Below are positions 2,527 to 36,769 of a stretch of 64,000 bases of DNA, piece by piece. The position numbers and the translations under genes were made by a program. Every line of letters starts with the position of its first letter. Positions within the stretch are counted from its first letter, which is position 1. Origin of the DNA: Actinotalea sp. JY-7876. GTDB lineage: Bacteria > Actinomycetota > Actinomycetes > Actinomycetales > Cellulomonadaceae. The notes beneath the pieces are model-generated. The model made no database searches. It saw nothing but the letters and a program-made list of their open reading frames with translations, and was not told where the DNA came from. The DNA lies in assembly GCF_014042015.1 (NCBI RefSeq), contig NZ_CP059493.1, positions 1,178,001 through 1,242,000 of the forward strand, written 5' to 3'.

Positions 2527-3066
2527 TCAGCCCAGCGCCCGCCGGGAGCTGATCACCCCGGTGTCGAAGCCCGCGAGGTGCAGCCCGCCGTGGAACCGCG
2601 CGTGCTCGATCTTGACGCACCGGTCCATGACCACGTCCAGACCCGCGGCCTCGCCGCGCCGGGCGACGTCCTCGTGCCAGGAGCCGAGCTGGAGCCACAG
2701 CGTCCGCGCCCCCACCGCGACCGTCTCGTCCAGGACGCTCGGCAGGTCGTCGTGCCGGCGGAAGACGTCGACGAGGTCGGGCACCACGGGCAGGGCGTCG
2801 AGCGAGGGATACACCGGGCGCCCGAGGATCTCGGTCGCCCGCGGGTTGACGAAGTACACGTCGTAGGGCGACGACGACAGCAGGTACGTCGCGACGAAGT
2901 AGCTCGCGCGCGAGGCGTTCGCCGACGCGCCGACGAGGGCGATCGACCGCGTCCGGCGCAGGATCGCCAGGCGCTCGGCGGCGCTGGGCCCTGCCCACGT
3001 GCGGGCGGTCGGGGCGGGCGCCGGCAGGGCGCAGGCGACGGCGTCGGCCGGTGGCTCGAGGCTCAT
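2527..3066 (-). CDS. CoA-binding (YccU-like Rossmann) protein
   Basis: The 179-residue protein is a single succinyl-CoA-ligase-type CoA-binding Rossmann domain: RSIALVGASANASRASYF at the phosphate-binding loop, YDVYFVNPRATEILGRPVYPSLDALP, then ARTLWLQLGSWHEDVARRGEAAGLDVVMDRCVKIEHARF at the end. The LGSWHE and DRCVKIEH motifs are typical of the YccU family. Its ATG overlaps the metY stop by 4 bp, making it the last gene of the sulfur operon. Homologues are often found next to metY; the function is unproven, possibly binding CoA or a CoA-linked sulfur intermediate. Confidence 0.85.
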   Translation of the reverse strand: MSLEPPADAVACALPAPAPTARTWAGPSAAERLAILRRTRSIALVGASANASRASYFVATYLLSSSPYDVYFVNPRATEILGRPVYPSLDALPVVPDLVDVFRRHDDLPSVLDETVAVGARTLWLQLGSWHEDVARRGEAAGLDVVMDRCVKIEHARFHGGLHLAGFDTGVISSRRALG

Positions 3067-4420
3067 GCGGGGACCTCCGTGGGGACGGGCGCGACGGCGG
3101 GACCCACCGCGGCGTCCAGGGCCTGGTCGAGGTCCCAGAGGATGTCCTCGACGTCCTCCAGTCCGACGCTGATGCGGACCAGGTCCGCCGGGACGCCGGC
3201 GGCCTCGAGCTGTTCGGGCGAGAGCTGCTGGTGCGTGGTCGACGCCGGGTGGATGACCAGGGTGCGCGAGTCGCCCACGTTGGCCAGGTGGCTCGCGAGC
3301 TGGAGCGACTCGATGAAGCGTCGCCCGGCGTCGCGGCCCGGCACGTCGTCCGAGCCGCGCAGGCCGAACGCGAACACCGCGCCCGGCCCCGCCGGCAGGT
3401 ACCGCGCGGCGCGCTCGTGGTGCGGGTGGGAGGGCAGGCCGGCCCAGTTGACGTAGCCGACCCGCGGGTCGGCCTCGAGCCACGCCGCGACGGCGCGCGT
3501 GTTCGCCAGGTGCGCGTCGAGGCGCTGCGGCAGGGTCTCGACGCCCTGGAGGAGGTTGAACGCCGACTGCGGGGACAGCGCCGGTCCGATGTCGCGCAGC
3601 TGCTCGGAGCGCAGCTTGGTGAGGAACCCGTACTCGCCGAAGTTCTCCCACCACGAGACGCCCCCGTACGAGGCCACCGGCTCGGTCATCTGGGGGAACT
3701 TCCCGTTGCCCCAGTCGAAGCGCCCGCTCTCGACGACGACGCCGCCGAGCGTGGTGCCGTGCCCGCCCAGGAACTTCGTGACCGAGTGGATGACGACGTC
3801 CGCCCCGTGCTCGATCGGGCGGCACAGGTACGGCGTCGCGAGCGTCGCGTCGATGACCAGGGGGACGCCCGCGGCGTGCGCCACCTCGGCGAGGCCGGCG
3901 ATGTCGGTGACCTCGCCCGAGGGGTTCGCGACGACCTCCGCGTAGACCACCTTGGTCTCCGGCCGGATCGCCGCCGCGTAGTCGGCCGGGTCGGTGCCGG
4001 GGACGAACGTCGTCGCGACCCCGAAGCGCCGCAGGGTGACGTCGAGCTGGGTGACCGTGCCGCCGTAGAGCGAGGCGGCGGCCACGACGTGGTCGCCCGC
4101 GCCGACGAGCGCGGCGAAGGTGATGAACTCCGCCGACATGCCCGACGCGGTGGCGACCGCGCCGATGCCGCCCTCGAGCGAGGCGATGCGCTCCTCGAGC
4201 GCCGCCACCGTCGGGTTCCCGATGCGCGAGTAGATGTTGCCGTACTTCTGGAGCGCGAAGAGGTTCGCCGCGTCGGCCGTGTCGCTGAAGACGAAGCTCG
4301 TCGTCTGGTAGATCGGCACGGCGCGGGCGCCGGTCGTGGCGTCGGGGACGCCGCCCGCGTGCAGGGCGCGCGTGCGGAACCCCCAGCGCCGGTCGCTCGT
4401 GGGTGCCTGCGGGGTGTCCG

Positions 4421-4424
<4 letters not shown>
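3063..4424 (-). CDS. metY: O-acetylhomoserine/O-acetylserine sulfhydrylase (MetY)
   Basis: The 453-residue Cys/Met-metabolism PLP enzyme has VPIYQTTSFVF and YSRIGNPTV at the N-terminus, the PLP-phosphate region (ATASGMSAEF), and the Schiff-base lysine in HSVTKFLGGHG. Length and the ASHLANVGDSRTLVIHPA segment fit O-acetylhomoserine aminocarboxypropyltransferase, which makes homocysteine from O-acetylhomoserine and sulfide. The start is GTG 4424, overlapping the synthetase stop by 4 bp (GTGA). Its place behind a sulfonate importer suggests it fixes the sulfide released from imported organosulfur. No metX is in the window. Confidence 0.93.
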
Positions 4425-6537
<2,113 letters not shown>

Positions 6538-6544
<7 letters not shown>

Positions 6545-7497
6545 CGGCGCAGGAGCCTCTTCTCGGCGACGCCGATGAGGGCGTCGGTCAGCTTGCCCAG
6601 CACCGCGAGGGTGACGAGGGAGAGCAGGATGCGGTCGACCCGACCGTTGTTGGTCGAGTCGGTGAGCAGGAAGCCGAGCCCCATCGACGACGCGATGAGC
6701 TCGGCCGCCACGAGGAACAGCCACGACTGCGCGAGCGCCAGCCGCAGCCCGGACACGACGGCGGGCGTCGCCGCGGGCAGCTGGACACGCAGCAGCAGCG
6801 CGGGCCCGCGCAGGCCGTAGGCCCGGCCCACCTCGACCAGGTGCGGGTCGACGTGGCGCAGCGCCGAGGCGACGGTCGTGTAGACGGGGAAGAAGGCGCC
6901 CACCGCGACGAGCAGGACCTTCGAGTCCTCGTTGATCCCGATCCACAGGATGAACAGCGGCACCCACCCGAGCGACGGCACGGCCCGCACGGCCCCGACC
7001 GTGCTGGCCAGGAGCGAGTCCGCGAGCCGGGACAGCCCCACGAGCGCCCCCGCGCCGAGCCCGGCGAGCGACCCGATGAGGAACCCGAGCAGCACCCGCT
7101 GGACGGAGATCTGGATGTGCGTGCCGAACGTCGGGCCGTTCTCCCAGGTCGCCAGCTCGACGCCCGCCCGGACCACGGCGCCGGGGGAGGGCAGCTGGTG
7201 GGGCGCGAAGGTCCCCGTCACCTCCGTGGCGACGTACCACGTGAGGAGCACGAGCACCGGCACGACGAGCGAGAGCGCGACGCGCCCGGCCCGGCCCACG
7301 CCCCGGCGCGCCGCACCGTCGGCCGCCGGGCGCGGGCGCTCGACCGTCACGACCCCGTGCTGCGTGACGAGGGCGGGGTCGGACGGCGCGGCGTCCTGCG
7401 GTCCCGCGTGCGGACCCCGCGGCAGGTCCGGCGCGCGCGGCGGACGGCGGTCCTGGTCCGCGGCGGGACCCGCGCCGGTGCTCCCGAGCACACTCAT
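6538..7497 (-). CDS. ssuC: ABC transporter permease, SsuC/TauC type
   Basis: The 319-residue integral membrane protein has a long polar, Pro-rich N-terminal tail (1-72) and about six hydrophobic segments. The ATP-binding-subunit contact loop is EVGRAYGLRGPALLLRVQLPAATPAVVSGLRLA. Family resemblance is to nitrate/taurine/aliphatic sulfonate importers, and the cysteine-leader and metY context favours a sulfur source. It is 24 bp downstream of the binding protein and overlaps the synthetase gene. Confidence 0.88.
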
Positions 7498-7521: not shown

Positions 7522-8574
7522 TCAGTCCGCGATCGTGGACGCGTCGGCCTGCTCGGCGAACTGCGTGTCGAACAGCTCGTCGATCGCCGTGTCGATCTGC
7601 TCCTGGGACCGGACGTCGCCGGACTCGACGAAGATCGGGCCGACCACCTCGAGCACGTCCCGCTGCGCGTCGCCGGGCACGACGTCGAGGTCGATCACCG
7701 TGCGCTCGAGGATCACCTTCTGCGCGACCGCGAGGTCGATCGCCGCGACGTCGGCGAGGATCTGCGCGGTCTCGTCCGGGTGCTCCAGCGCCCACGCGCG
7801 CGCCCGCTCGTACGCGTCGAGCACGAGCTGCGCGAGGTCGGGGTTCGAGTCGATGAACTCCTGCGTCGCGTTGAGGAAGCCGTAGGTGTTGAAGTCGATG
7901 TTGCGGTAGATCAGCTGCGACCCGGCCGTGGCCTCGCTCGCCGCCATCAGCGGGTCGAGCCCCGACCACGCGTCGACGGCACCGGACTCGAGCGCCGCCT
8001 TGCCGTCCGCGTGCTGCAGGTTCTGGACCTCGACGTCGCCCAGGGCGACGCCGTGCTCCTCGAGGGACTGGAGCAGGAAGAAGTACGGGTCGGTGCCCTT
8101 CGTGGCCGCGACCGAGCGGCCGGCGAGCTGCTCGACGGAGGTGATGTCCGAGCCCGCGGGGACGACGATCGCCGACCACTCCGGCTGGGTGTAGAGGCCG
8201 ATCGTGCGGATCGGGGAGCCGTTGGCGCGGGCGAGCAGGGCGGCGGAGCCCGCCGTGGAGCCCACGTCGACGGCGCCGGCGCGCAGCGCCTCGTTGGCCT
8301 TGTTGGACCCCGCCGACTGGACCCAGTTCACGGTGACGTCGTCGCCGAGCGTCGCCTCGAGCCAGCCCTCCTCCTTGATGATCAGGCTGAGCGGGTTGTA
8401 CGTGGCGAAGTCGATGGTCAGGACGTCGTCGCTCCACGCCTCGTCGCCGGCGGACGCCGCCGGCTCGGGCGCCTCGTCGATGGTCGCGGAGCCCTCGCCG
8501 GCCGCGCAGCCGCCGAGCATCAGGGCGACGGCAGCGGTCGCCGCGGTGACGGACAGCGTGGTGCGGATGCTCAT
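7522..8574 (-). CDS. ssuA: Sulfonate/taurine-type substrate-binding lipoprotein
   Basis: The 350-residue protein begins with a lipoprotein signal peptide; the lipobox LGGC places the acylated Cys at residue 23. The mature part is an NMT1/SsuA-like periplasmic-binding fold (VLTIDFATYNPLSLIIKEEGWLE, AGAVDVGSTAGSAALLARANGSPIRTIGLY, then LAGRSVAATKGTDPYFFL). It captures the ligand outside the membrane and delivers it to SsuC. The exact ligand cannot be read from sequence; the operon points to an organosulfur compound. Confidence 0.88.
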   Translation of the reverse strand: MSIRTTLSVTAATAAVALMLGGCAAGEGSATIDEAPEPAASAGDEAWSDDVLTIDFATYNPLSLIIKEEGWLEATLGDDVTVNWVQSAGSNKANEALRAGAVDVGSTAGSAALLARANGSPIRTIGLYTQPEWSAIVVPAGSDITSVEQLAGRSVAATKGTDPYFFLLQSLEEHGVALGDVEVQNLQHADGKAALESGAVDAWSGLDPLMAASEATAGSQLIYRNIDFNTYGFLNATQEFIDSNPDLAQLVLDAYERARAWALEHPDETAQILADVAAIDLAVAQKVILERTVIDLDVVPGDAQRDVLEVVGPIFVESGDVRSQEQIDTAIDELFDTQFAEQADASTIAD

Positions 8575-8674: not shown

Positions 8675-9529
8675 TCAGATCGAGTGGTGCTGGTCGGGGT
8701 CGACCGGCTCGTGGTGGCTCGGGACGCCGAGGCCGTCGAGGAGCCGCGCGCGCAGCAGCGCGAGCTCGGCGTCGGCCCGGTCGCGCGGCCGGGCGCCGGG
8801 GACCGTGACGACGCTGCGGACGCCGGCCGGCGCGGACCGGGGCGCGCCGTCGGCGCGGCCGAGCAGGACCACGCGGTCGGCGAGGTACAGCGCCTCGTCG
8901 ACGTCGTGCGTCACGAGCAGGACGGTGGTGGGCTCCGCCGCGTGCACGTCGAGCAGGAGGTCCTGCATCTGCAGGCGGGTCAGTGCGTCCAGCGCCCCGA
9001 ACGGCTCGTCCAGCACCAGGACCCCCGGGTTGCGGGCCAGCGCCCGGGCGAGCGACGCGCGCTGCGCCATGCCGCCCGAGACCTGGCGGGGCCGGTACCC
9101 CGTGCAGTCGCCGAGGCCCACGAGCTCGAGCAGCTCGGTGACCCGGCGCGCGCCCGCGGCCCGGTCGGTCCCGCGTGGCAGGCCGATCGCGACGTTCTGC
9201 GCCAGCGTGCGCCACGGCAGCAGGCGCGGCTCCTGGAAGGCGACGGCGCAGCGGGCGTCGACCCCGGTGACCGGCCGCCCGTCGATGAGGATCTCCCCGG
9301 TCGTGGGCGTGTCGAGACCCGCGACCTGGCGCAGGAGCGTCGACTTGCCGCAGCCCGACGCCCCCAGGAGCGCCACGATCTCCCCGGGGACCAGCTCGAG
9401 GTCGACGTCGGCCAGGACGGGCTTGGGTGCGCCGCGACGGTCGCGGGCAGGGAACGTCCGGCCGACGCCGCGCACGGCGACGCCGTGGGCCGGGTGGGTG
9501 CGCACGCTGGTGGGGGCGGAGATCGCCAT
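8675..9529 (-). CDS. ssuB: ABC transporter ATP-binding protein, SsuB/TauB type
   Basis: The 284-residue ATPase has Walker A (GASGCGKST), Q-loop (AFQEPRLLPWR), signature (VSGGMAQRASLARALA), Walker B (VLVLDEPFGALD) and H-loop (LLVTHDVDEAL). The FQEPRLLPW segment is characteristic of the nitrate/sulfonate/taurine group. It is the first full-length gene of the operon; its ATG lies 140 nt after the stop of the Cys-rich leader ORF, with the inverted repeats between. Confidence 0.9.
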   Translation of the reverse strand: MAISAPTSVRTHPAHGVAVRGVGRTFPARDRRGAPKPVLADVDLELVPGEIVALLGASGCGKSTLLRQVAGLDTPTTGEILIDGRPVTGVDARCAVAFQEPRLLPWRTLAQNVAIGLPRGTDRAAGARRVTELLELVGLGDCTGYRPRQVSGGMAQRASLARALARNPGVLVLDEPFGALDALTRLQMQDLLLDVHAAEPTTVLLVTHDVDEALYLADRVVLLGRADGAPRSAPAGVRSVVTVPGARPRDRADAELALLRARLLDGLGVPSHHEPVDPDQHHSI

Positions 9530-9609
9530 GACGGGTCCTCGGGTCCTGCCGGCACGCGAGCGAGGGCTCGCGCCGGGCCGCGGGAGAGCGGGGCGGGGAG
9601 CGGGGGTGA

Positions 9610-9683
9610 GCGCCGGCGGCCTAGGTCCGTCGTCGGGCCGGGACGGACCGGCTCAACCGAGGCGGTGCGTCAGGCGCCGGCGC
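9610..9683 (-). promoter_or_regulatory. Candidate cysteine attenuator structure, ssu-acs-metY operon
   Basis: On the transcript, GCGCCGGCG at the end of the leader ORF (9683-9675) is a perfect 9-nt complement of CGCCGGCGC at 9618-9610. Inside it is an 8-bp hairpin, GGTCCGTC (9649-9642) with GACGGACC (9631-9624). The leader's Cys codons occupy 9708-9691, so a ribosome stalled there would cover the 5' arm of the outer stem. That geometry suits attenuation, but there is no U-tract, so Rho-dependent or translational control are alternatives. Confidence 0.5.
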
Positions 9684-9759
9684 GTGGCATGCACAGACAG
9701 CAGCCACAGCCGAAGGGCATCATCGGCAGCGCCATCGACACGTCCTGGAGACGGTGCAC
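9670..9759 (-). CDS. Cys-rich leader peptide (29 aa) of the ssu-acs-metY operon
   Basis: A GTG at 9759 is preceded at 7 nt by GGAGG (within GGGAGGT), giving a 29-codon ORF ending in TGA at 9672-9670. Residues 16-26 read FGCGCCLCMPR: four Cys in six codons (18, 20, 21, 23). Met is also frequent (residues 9, 13, 14, 24). It sits just downstream of a good promoter and upstream of sulfur-uptake genes. Polycysteine small ORFs act as cysteine attenuators in mycobacteria, and short Cys-ended leader peptides are commonly annotated before sulfur genes in streptomycetes. The coding call is strong; the sensing role is inferred. Confidence 0.75.
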   Translation of the reverse strand: MHRLQDVSMALPMMPFGCGCCLCMPRAGA

Positions 9760-9854
9760 GGCGCTACCTCCCTTCGGTCGGGTCCCGCGCGGACCCGGCG
9801 GGAGCCGGTCCGACATGCGAGACGGGTTGCCCGCTGGGCAAGACCCTCGTCGCG

Positions 9855-9884
9855 AGGCTAGGCGCGCGGCGGGCGGCAGGGCAA
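9855..9884 (-). promoter_or_regulatory. Promoter of the ssu-acs-metY operon
   Basis: Reading the minus strand, TTGCCC (9884-9879) and TAGCCT (9860-9855) are separated by exactly 18 bp. Transcription would start near 9848, about 90 nt before the leader ORF. That 5' segment can form alternative hairpins, CGGACC...GGTCCG against GGGTCC...GGACCC, sharing the central GGTCC, and TTGCCC-AGC-GGGCAA. The cysK leader promoter has nearly the same boxes and the same spacer. Confidence 0.6.
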
Positions 9885-14205: not shown

Positions 14206-15141
14206 TCAGTCCATCAGGTCCGAGTAGAGGACCGACGTCAGGTAGCGCTCGCCGAAGGACGGGACGATGACGACGATCAGCTTGCCCGCGTTCTCGGGGC
14301 GCTGGGCGACCTGGACGGCGGCGTGGATCGCGGCACCGGAGGAGATGCCGACGAGCAGGCCCTCGCGCTGAGCGGTGTCGCGCGCGACGCGGACCGCGGT
14401 CTCGGCGTCGACGTCGATGACCTCGTCGTAGACCGACGTGTCCAGGATCTCCGGCACGAAGTTGGCCCCGATGCCCTGGATCTTGTGCGGGCCGGGCTGG
14501 CCACCGTTGAGGATCGGCGACTCCGCCGGCTCGACGGCGATGACCTGCACGCCCGGCTTGCGCTCCTTGAGGACCTGCCCGACGCCGGTGATGGTGCCGC
14601 CCGTGCCGATGCCGGCGACGAGGATGTCGACCTGGCCGTCGGTGTCCGCCCAGATCTCCTCCGCCGTGGTCGCGCGGTGGATCGCCGGGTTCGCCTCGTT
14701 GGCGAACTGGCGGGCCAGGATGGCGCCCGGGCGCTCGGCCGCGATCTGCTCGGCGCGGGTGACGGCGCCCTTCATGCCCTCGGAGCCCGGGGTGAGCACG
14801 AGCTCGGCGCCGAAGGCGCGCAGCAGGGCCCGGCGCTCCTTGGACATCGTCTCGGGCATCGTGAGCACGACGTCGTAGCCGCGCGCCGCGCCGACCATGG
14901 CCAGCGCGATGCCCGTGTTGCCGCTCGTCGCCTCGACGACCGTGCCGCCCGGGGGCAGCTCGCCGGACGCCTCGGCGGCGTCGATGATCGCGACGCCGAT
15001 GCGGTCCTTGACCGAGTTCGCGGGGTTGTAGAACTCGAGCTTGGCGGCGACGGTCGCCCCGGCGCCCTCGGTCACGCGGTTGAGGCGGACCAGCGGCGTG
15101 CCGCCGATGAGCTTGGTGACGTCGTCGTGGATGCGTGCCAT
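14206..15141 (-). CDS. cysK: Cysteine synthase A (O-acetylserine sulfhydrylase)
   Basis: The 311-residue PLP enzyme has [11 protein letters not shown], the Schiff-base lysine in [10 protein letters not shown], the substrate loop [13 protein letters not shown] and the PLP-phosphate loop [13 protein letters not shown]. It replaces the acetate of O-acetylserine with sulfide. The start ATG 15141 follows GAGGACT. Residues 1-10 lack the long N-terminal extension of cystathionine beta-synthase. It is preceded by a Cys-containing leader ORF and inverted repeats, so expression is probably tied to cysteine supply. Confidence 0.95.
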
Positions 15142-35764: not shown

Positions 35765-36769
35765 ATGGGGACGGGTCTGACCATCGGCTACGCCGCGATG
35801 CTCGAGCAGTTCCACCCGACCGAGGCCGTCGAGCTCGCGGTGCTGGCGGAGCAGCACGGGTTCTCGGGCGTCATGGCCGCGGACCACTTCCAGCCGTGGG
35901 TCCCGCAGCAGGGCCAGTCCGCCTTCGTGTGGAACGTGCTGGCGGCACTGGGCGAGCGCACGCGCGGCGACCTCGGCCCCGGCGTCACGGCGCCCACGTT
36001 CCGCTGGCACCCCGCGATGGTCGCGCAGGCCTCCGCGACGCTCGCGGCGATGTACCCGGGGCGGCACTGGCTGGGGCTGGGCTCGGGCGAGGCGCTCAAC
36101 GAGCACGTGGTCGCGGGCTACTGGCCGGAGGCGCCGGAGCGGATCAACCGGATGTTCGACGCCATCGACCTCATCACCAAGCTGTTCACCGCCTCGATCG
36201 CCGGCAAGGACGTCAAGCACTCGGGGCCCTTCTACACGATGGAGTCCACGCGGCTGTGGACCATGCCCGAGGTCGCCCCGGAGATCCTCGTGGCCACCGC
36301 GGGACCGGTCACCGCGCGCCGCGCCGGGCGGCACGCGGACGGGCTCATCACCGTCGGCGCCCCGCTGGAGAAGATCGCGGGGCTCTTCGCCCGGTTCGAG
36401 GCGGGGGCGCGCGAGGCGGGCAAGGACCCGGCGACGATGCCGCGCGTGCTCCAGGTGCACCTGTCCTGGGCCCCCACGGACGAGGAGGCGACGGCCAACG
36501 CGCTGCGCGAGTGGCCCAACGGCGGGATGCGGTTCCCCAAGGCCGACATCCGCTCCCCGTTCGACTTCGAGCAGATCGCGCGGCTCGTGCGCGCCGAGGA
36601 CTTCGCCGGTCGGATGGTGATCTCGGCGGACCCGGACGTCCACCGGGCAGCGATCCAGAAGTACGTCGACCTCGGCTTCGACCGGGTCTACCTGCACAAC
36701 GTCGGCCGCAACCAGCGGGAGTGGATCGAGGTCTTCGGCCGCGACGTGCTCCCGAAGCTGTCGCGGTGA
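35765..36769 (+). CDS. F420-dependent LLM-class oxidoreductase, G6PDH-related
   Basis: The 334-residue luciferase-like TIM barrel has the N-terminal [38 protein letters not shown], the segment [43 protein letters not shown] and C-terminal [20 protein letters not shown]. These match the F420-dependent glucose-6-phosphate dehydrogenase relatives (TIGR03557 type). It should transfer hydride to or from F420; the substrate is not known. GGAGG precedes the ATG, and the stop overlaps cofE by 4 bp. Confidence 0.88.

Follow-up and report, generated by a model that had tools for sequence, protein, structure and literature searches.

A cysteine-codon leader with covarying RNA stems before an ssu-like operon of Actinotalea: a candidate ribosome-mediated attenuator

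What does a short, cysteine-rich reading frame do in front of an operon for sulfur compounds, and by which switch might it act? The question is raised by Actinotalea sp. JY-7876, a member of the Cellulomonadaceae, in a stretch of 64,000 nucleotides (the window, contig NZ_CP059493.1, positions 1,178,001 to 1,242,000). The leader region features the following elements:

9884-9855, minus strand: promoter TTGCCC (9884-9879)-N18-TAGCCT (9860-9855), recognised by its sequence.
9772-9766, minus strand: Shine-Dalgarno (SD) sequence of the leader, GGGAGGT, likewise recognised by sequence; an SD is also present in relatives.
9759 (GTG) to 9670 (stop), minus strand: cysteine leader ORF of 29 codons, MHRLQDVSMALPMMPFGCGCCLCMPRAGA, with a homologue in all 15 loci of the Actinotalea clade.
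9708-9691, minus strand: candidate regulatory codons TGT GGC TGC TGT CTG TGC, four Cys in six codons (CGCCLC).

The C-terminal end of the leader reads GCGCCLCMPRAGA, and 140 nt separate its stop codon from ssuB. A preliminary description of this DNA had pointed to a 29-codon ORF with a good ribosome-binding site and four Cys in six codons, and all of this stands exactly as described, the site being a strong one. Among the 65 short SD-led frames of the window (8-60 aa, ATG or GTG start, an SD of at least 5, each nested start taken as a frame of its own), it is the sole one with four Cys in six codons. Another SD-preceded frame on the plus strand (27181/27259-27312) carries three Cys in a row, which may be chance.

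The leader is followed by six genes on the same strand:

8675-9529, minus strand: ssuB-like ATPase, first gene of the operon; matches models of the sulfonate/nitrate/taurine type below the equivalog cut-offs.
7522-8574, minus strand: ssuA-like substrate-binding protein; TIGR01728 above cut-off.
6538-7497, minus strand: ssuC-like permease; models of the sulfonate/nitrate/taurine type, below cut-offs.
4421-6400 (start approximate), minus strand: acs, acetate-CoA ligase family; TIGR02188 above cut-off.
3063-4424 (start approximate), minus strand: metY-like gene; an open frame whose position is conserved in relatives.
2527-3066 (start approximate), minus strand: gene of a CoA-binding protein; an open frame whose position is conserved in relatives.

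The operon had been described as a sulfonate ABC transporter with acs and metY. This identity is firm for SsuA and acs, which pass their cut-offs, and looser for SsuB and SsuC, which do not. The frames at 3063-4424 and 2527-3066 are taken here to be MetY and a CoA-binding protein, names that come from the preliminary description.

Relatives were collected with SsuA. A search of 150 family genomes gave any match in 105, the best 30 places of which were taken as loci. The genus, searched in full, has 19 genomes; 15 of them gave a match at E <= 1e-100 and two loci were added, for a total of 32. A short SD-led Cys ORF precedes ssuB in 31 of these 32 family loci; the remaining one, L028, is cut by the contig start, yet a Cys-rich tail is visible. 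Leaders were called with a minimum SD of 4, and the weakest of them, L029, has 2 Cys in 44 codons. A second set of 80 named loci comprises 27 with a leader (Actinotalea, Cellulomonas, one Cellulosimicrobium record and the metagenome-assembled L083), 8 that are not assessable because of a contig edge or a missing ssuB, and 45 with the same ssu genes and no convincing leader among the listed ORFs as judged by eye. The latter belong to Microbacteriaceae, Arthrobacter/Pseudarthrobacter, Promicromonospora, Georgenia and others. Short ORFs with at least 2 Cys occur in 10 of these 45, none of them judged convincing by eye; the most leader-like are in L086 and L088, two Arthrobacter loci with an unrelated short ORF (CSVGCYC) 86 to 8 nt upstream of ssuB, which is possibly an independent cysteine leader. 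Of the 27 named loci with a leader, 25 have at least part of the set of acs, metY and the CoA-binding protein gene downstream of ssuC; L064 ends in acs, and in L083 metY is present but acs is not. Promicromonospora combines metY with the absence of the leader. Taken together, the relatives speak for a functional leader. The 31 family loci and 10 of the 27 leader-bearing named loci, the other 17 being repeats, make up the 41 leaders analysed below; L040 repeats L014, which leaves 40 distinct leaders, and L021 and L022 are nearly the same. Exact copies of the leader end occur once per genome in 13 of the 19 genus genomes, and the control pattern gave 0.

The promoter TTGCCC-N18-TAGCCT had also been claimed beforehand; it is present, and the motif TTGnnn-N17/18-TAnnnT, ending 59-95 nt upstream of the leader start, recurs in 37 of 41 leaders compared with 4 of 820 mononucleotide shuffles. 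With an SD and 59-95 nt from the -10 element to the start in these 37, the ssu leader is not leaderless. Between the -10 element and the leader SD, 16 of 32 ssu loci carry a perfect palindrome, GTCTC-N7-GAGAC or TCTCA-N5-TGAGA (e.g. L003:262-278), and 11 of those 16, all of the Actinotalea clade, have in addition the half-site GTCTCrnCATnTG upstream of it. The palindrome is probably an operator of some regulator and is degenerate in the window.

The preliminary description had proposed that relatives be compared for conserved Cys codons and stems. The Cys codons are conserved: every one of the 41 leaders contains Cys, which accounts for 161 of 1205 codons (1-7 per leader). The label 'polycysteine' does not hold strictly, as a single Cys is left in L005 and L032, two of the 15 Actinotalea-clade leaders. 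The choice of codon is unusual as well. The rare TGT makes up 83 of 161 leader Cys codons, compared with 24 of 406 in the operon genes of all named loci; for the 40 distinct leaders and the operon genes of the 27 leader-bearing named loci, TGT/TGC counts are 80/76 (80 of 156) and 4/171 (4 of 175), with a p of ~1e-27 that serves as a guide only because the rows are related. Nine genes of the window contain 0 TGT and 15 TGC.

A comparable leader precedes a second sulfur locus in the window:

15418-15350, minus strand: second Cys leader, before cysK-cysE; TAGCGT lies 7 nt before the ATG, and cysK starts at 15141.

This leader is probably leaderless. A Cys-bearing short ORF before cysK was found as a candidate in 19 of 19 genus genomes, a figure that is partly selection since a candidate needed at least 2 Cys, one near the stop; in genomes with several candidates, the choice was made by eye. 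The 19 cysK leaders resemble the ssu leaders, with TGT/TGC of 32/39 and a mean best 60-nt C minus G of 17.6 in the spacer.

The RNA of the Actinotalea-clade ssu leader features four helices:

9766-9760 with 9733-9727, minus strand: helix P, spanning the leader start codon; 95.2% of cells paired, two-sided changes at one pair.
9707-9703 with 9688-9684, minus strand: helix C (GUGGC/GCCAC), a hairpin around the Cys codons; 98.6% paired, two pairs with two-sided changes.
9683-9673 with 9621-9610, minus strand: stem A, with the stop codon and helix B inside it; 98.6% of cells paired, two-sided changes at two pairs.
9639-9635 with 9628-9624, minus strand: helix B (GGUCC/GGACC in relatives); 94.7% paired, one pair with two-sided changes.

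Helix P pairs the leader start region with the Ala-Leu codons, helix B has one mismatch in the window, and stem A joins the end of the leader ORF as its 5′ arm to a 3′ arm ~50 nt past the stop. Over the 15 Actinotalea-clade sequences, 97.0% of 398 cells are paired, a figure favoured by the naming of the helices from alifold and from one of the same 15 sequences. The stems are conserved in the Actinotalea clade, with covariation: two-sided changes occur at 6 pairs in 13 cells, a count reached in 0 of 500 shuffles, and slid controls show none. Further pair types in the four helices are no more numerous than expected by chance (74 of 500 shuffles). No fold among 100 shuffles is as good as that of the 321-nt leader (z -3.6); the 108-nt core stands out less, with 7 of 200 shuffles reaching its level (z -1.9). 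An alternative pairing of helix P with the arms of stem A was dropped by eye, as L007 and L009 break it. The 9-bp repeat 9610-9618/9675-9683, reported beforehand as perfectly complementary, is exact and lies within stem A; its siting where a ribosome stalled at the Cys codons would sit needs correction, since, with the last Cys codon in its A site, a ribosome would presumably cover just ~3 nt at the start of the stem A arm.

Outside the Actinotalea clade, the same layout can be followed in part. Nine Cellulomonas sequences (group Y) repeat it with different letters: a hairpin close to the Cys codons and, after it, a GCACCGGC/GCCGGUGC stem. Here, stem A is invariant and hence without covariation, and hairpin C shifts register, so that no pair counts are given. 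Folded singly, two of three group Y sequences show both helices in the MFE structure and in the third, L018, stem A is confined to the centroid structure. Five further Cellulomonas sequences (group X) pair GCACCG with CGGUGC, and another five (group Z, two identical) show nothing clear. L083 has a strong stem A and matches a covariance model of helices C, A and B on its leader with 40 bits. Among 39 loci, this model gave 7 matches at E <= 1: at the leader in L083 and, weakly, in L055 (19.5) and L017 (19.3), and elsewhere in L075 (28.7), twice in L079 and a second time in L055. In 297 genomes of the order, the sole match was the own genome, a result of little weight because 13 of thousands of candidates per genome were scored. 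Rfam holds no match for the leader RNA; NCBIfam holds none for the window leader peptide or for eight leader peptides, which are so short that profile filters may lose them.

From these comparisons, the leader is predicted to attenuate the ssuBAC-acs-metY operon in response to cysteine, by way of the translating ribosome, with a probability of about two in three. As for the switch, an intrinsic terminator of the classical trp-type attenuator is found neither in the window region nor in the 41 leaders (0/41). Rho would be the likeliest off-switch, a tentative choice held at a little short of an even chance. When cysteine is plentiful, ribosomes would reach the stop codon and cover the 5′ arm of stem A, leaving the C-rich spacer open for Rho, which would load and end transcription before or early in ssuB. 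When Cys-tRNA runs short, ribosomes would stall at the Cys codons, hairpin C would melt and stem A would close—folding away part of the single strand, so that RNA polymerase could read through. The rho gene is present in the own genome, and the spacer contains a stretch suited to this role:

9551-9610, minus strand: C-rich, G-poor, rut-like stretch just 3′ of stem A; C minus G of 21 in 60 nt.

The spacers between leader stop and ssuB consist of 51% C and 30% G. The best 60-nt C minus G averages 18.1 in 40 spacers (spacers under 80 nt, 1 of 41, were left out). For 140-nt segments of the window (3650 in number), the mean is 6.7 and 1.8% attain 18.1; for 44 leaderless relatives, whose GC is lower, it is 6.8. 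When matched for length, 27 of 39 spacers fall into the top 5% of window segments, the worst case standing at 24.5%. The argument for a rut site is of just moderate force because ssuB itself starts with 60 C-rich nt (C minus G 14.8, the tract running on into the gene), because the spacers are richer in GC than the window (81% vs 75%) and because the leaderless controls are lower in GC. The rating of the Rho step was lowered on account of this C-rich start of ssuB and of a fold that encloses the ribosome-binding site (RBS). The weakest link of the model is how the closure of stem A would protect from Rho, the richest C stretch starting at or just after its 3′ arm in 12 of 15 Actinotalea-clade loci.

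That fold leads to the strongest rival, translational attenuation as reported for mycobacteria, in which the position of the ribosome would set whether the RNA encloses or masks the RBS of ssuB. There is a reported precedent in M. smegmatis, which the available text of PMC13236596 calls translation attenuation. The SDs of ssuB look weak, alifold places a small hairpin of 5 pairs over the ssuB SD and start, and with a ribosome at the stop the freed 3′ arm of stem A pairs, around this hairpin, with ssuB codons ~9-13 (9 pairs in 8-15 sequences). However, this latter pairing shows a two-sided change at one pair (2 sequences), and the coding constraint of ssuB can explain the kept letters. In models of RBS accessibility that place the ribosome at the first Cys, at the last Cys or at the stop, or leave it out, its position causes no consistent shift: the energy to open the RBS with the ribosome at the first Cys is lower in 23 and higher in 18 of 41 leaders (p 0.24), and the mean unpaired probability is 0.45, 0.43 and 0.41 at first Cys, last Cys and stop (15 loci). 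This modelling does not support RBS masking, which may nevertheless be the switch, with a probability well short of even.

Less probable still, and unlikely on balance, is that the leader of the Actinotalea clade reads methionine, or cysteine together with methionine, for an operon that has a metY-like gene. Each of the 15 leaders of this clade contains 4-7 ATG (start included), next to a single Cys in two of them, and a leader of S. lividans ending in CMCRRMCAF before metNIQ is described as methionine-dependent in the available text of PMC8079986. However, the 26 other leaders, nearly all of Cellulomonas, precede the same set of transporter genes with 1-4 ATG and 2-7 Cys each, the cysK leader of the window has no internal Met, and structure may explain the retention of some Met codons, located within or next to helices P and C. 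Conservation of nothing but the RNA—a protein-binding element or riboswitch with an incidental ORF, in line with four covarying helices and the empty Rfam search—is very improbable given that SD and start are kept, that Cys codons persist across genera in different sequence, that TGT is favoured and that separate leaders precede cysK.

The reading as a cysteine attenuator places the leader among known systems. Polycysteine, leaderless sORF attenuators were reportedly tested in M. smegmatis by Canestrari et al. in 2020 (Mol Microbiol 114:93). Attenuation by polycysteine sORFs of M. smegmatis is cited in the available text of PMC13236596 and PMC9094748. In both kinds, a short ORF in which Cys codons cluster lies upstream of genes for sulfur or cysteine metabolism, and a genome has more than one. 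The mycobacterial sORFs are leaderless, whereas the ssu leader has an SD, a promoter 59-95 nt upstream, TGT in half of its Cys codons and covarying helices. Cysteine control is reportedly translation-dependent in mycobacteria and would be so here; it is reported to act there by RBS masking, in contrast to the lack of a consistent folding effect at ssuB. The target had been called different from that of mycobacteria, which holds gene by gene (ssuBAC-acs-metY vs other genes) but still lies within sulfur metabolism. The ribosome position on the leader ORF decides Rho action on an untranslated leader in mgtL and tnaC. These attenuators respond to other signals in other hosts, and Rho action at ssuB is a proposal.

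Cys leader peptides were predicted before cys operons of Mycobacterium, in P. acnes and before cbs of B. longum by Seliverstov et al. 2005 (PMC1262725). According to the available parts of that paper, these leaders likewise have Cys runs near the stop codon and no terminators, and Rho-dependent termination was suggested as one possibility. Conserved terminator hairpins are absent there and polyY motifs are not conserved, whereas the ssu leaders feature covarying stems and a spacer rich in C. The Streptomyces lividans metL leader, upstream of metNIQ (PMC8079986, as far as its available text goes) shares alternating Cys and Met codons, an ABC transporter for sulfur compounds and an unclear termination; it differs in being leaderless, in its annotation as methionine-dependent and in a sequence that is not alike. 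Among the literature matches listed, which leave most subscription papers outside the search, nothing concerns this leader family or ssu operon. The ssu leader with its covarying stems is most likely a variant of the known cysteine-leader kind, whose related mycobacterial members precede other genes.

The metabolic setting bears on what the transporter carries. The own genome consists of a single contig of 3.55 Mb, with completeness rated at 100%. PAPS reductase (PF01507), present in 3 of 19 genus genomes, was not found in it, nor was a sulfite reductase domain (PF01077), and no SsuD lies above its cut-off, though 18 luciferase-like loci exist. One of these, a luciferase-like monooxygenase locus, lies in the window at 35804-36684 on the plus strand. 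A relative of MetX is present below a cut-off that 0 of 14 control genomes pass either. The genome keeps ssu-like transport, the metY-like gene and cysK despite the PAPS and sulfite reductases not being found. Since no sulfite reductase domain was found, a transporter delivering sulfite would be of little use, and the ssu-like transporter may carry another sulfur source.

With a like leader before cysK, the proposed attenuation would extend to a small cysteine 'ribulon'. In its widest form, this picture is a Cellulomonadaceae ribulon acting via Rho, in which ssu and cysK leaders gate a C-rich rut site by ribosome stalling, with a covarying RNA switch at ssu, with reduced sulfur scavenged in place of assimilatory sulfate reduction and with an Actinotalea ssu leader that reads cysteine and methionine; as a whole it is speculative and rather unlikely to hold. 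An 'aliphatic sulfonate' transporter tied to cysteine supply in such a genome would place its annotated substrate in question. How terminator-less cysteine leaders work in high-GC Actinobacteria was left open at their prediction in 2005, as judged by the available parts of PMC1262725. The 40 distinct ssu leaders, with their covarying stem, and the 19 leaders of cysK, for the most part from bacteria of soil and other environments, form a set with which the Rho and RBS-masking models could be told apart experimentally.
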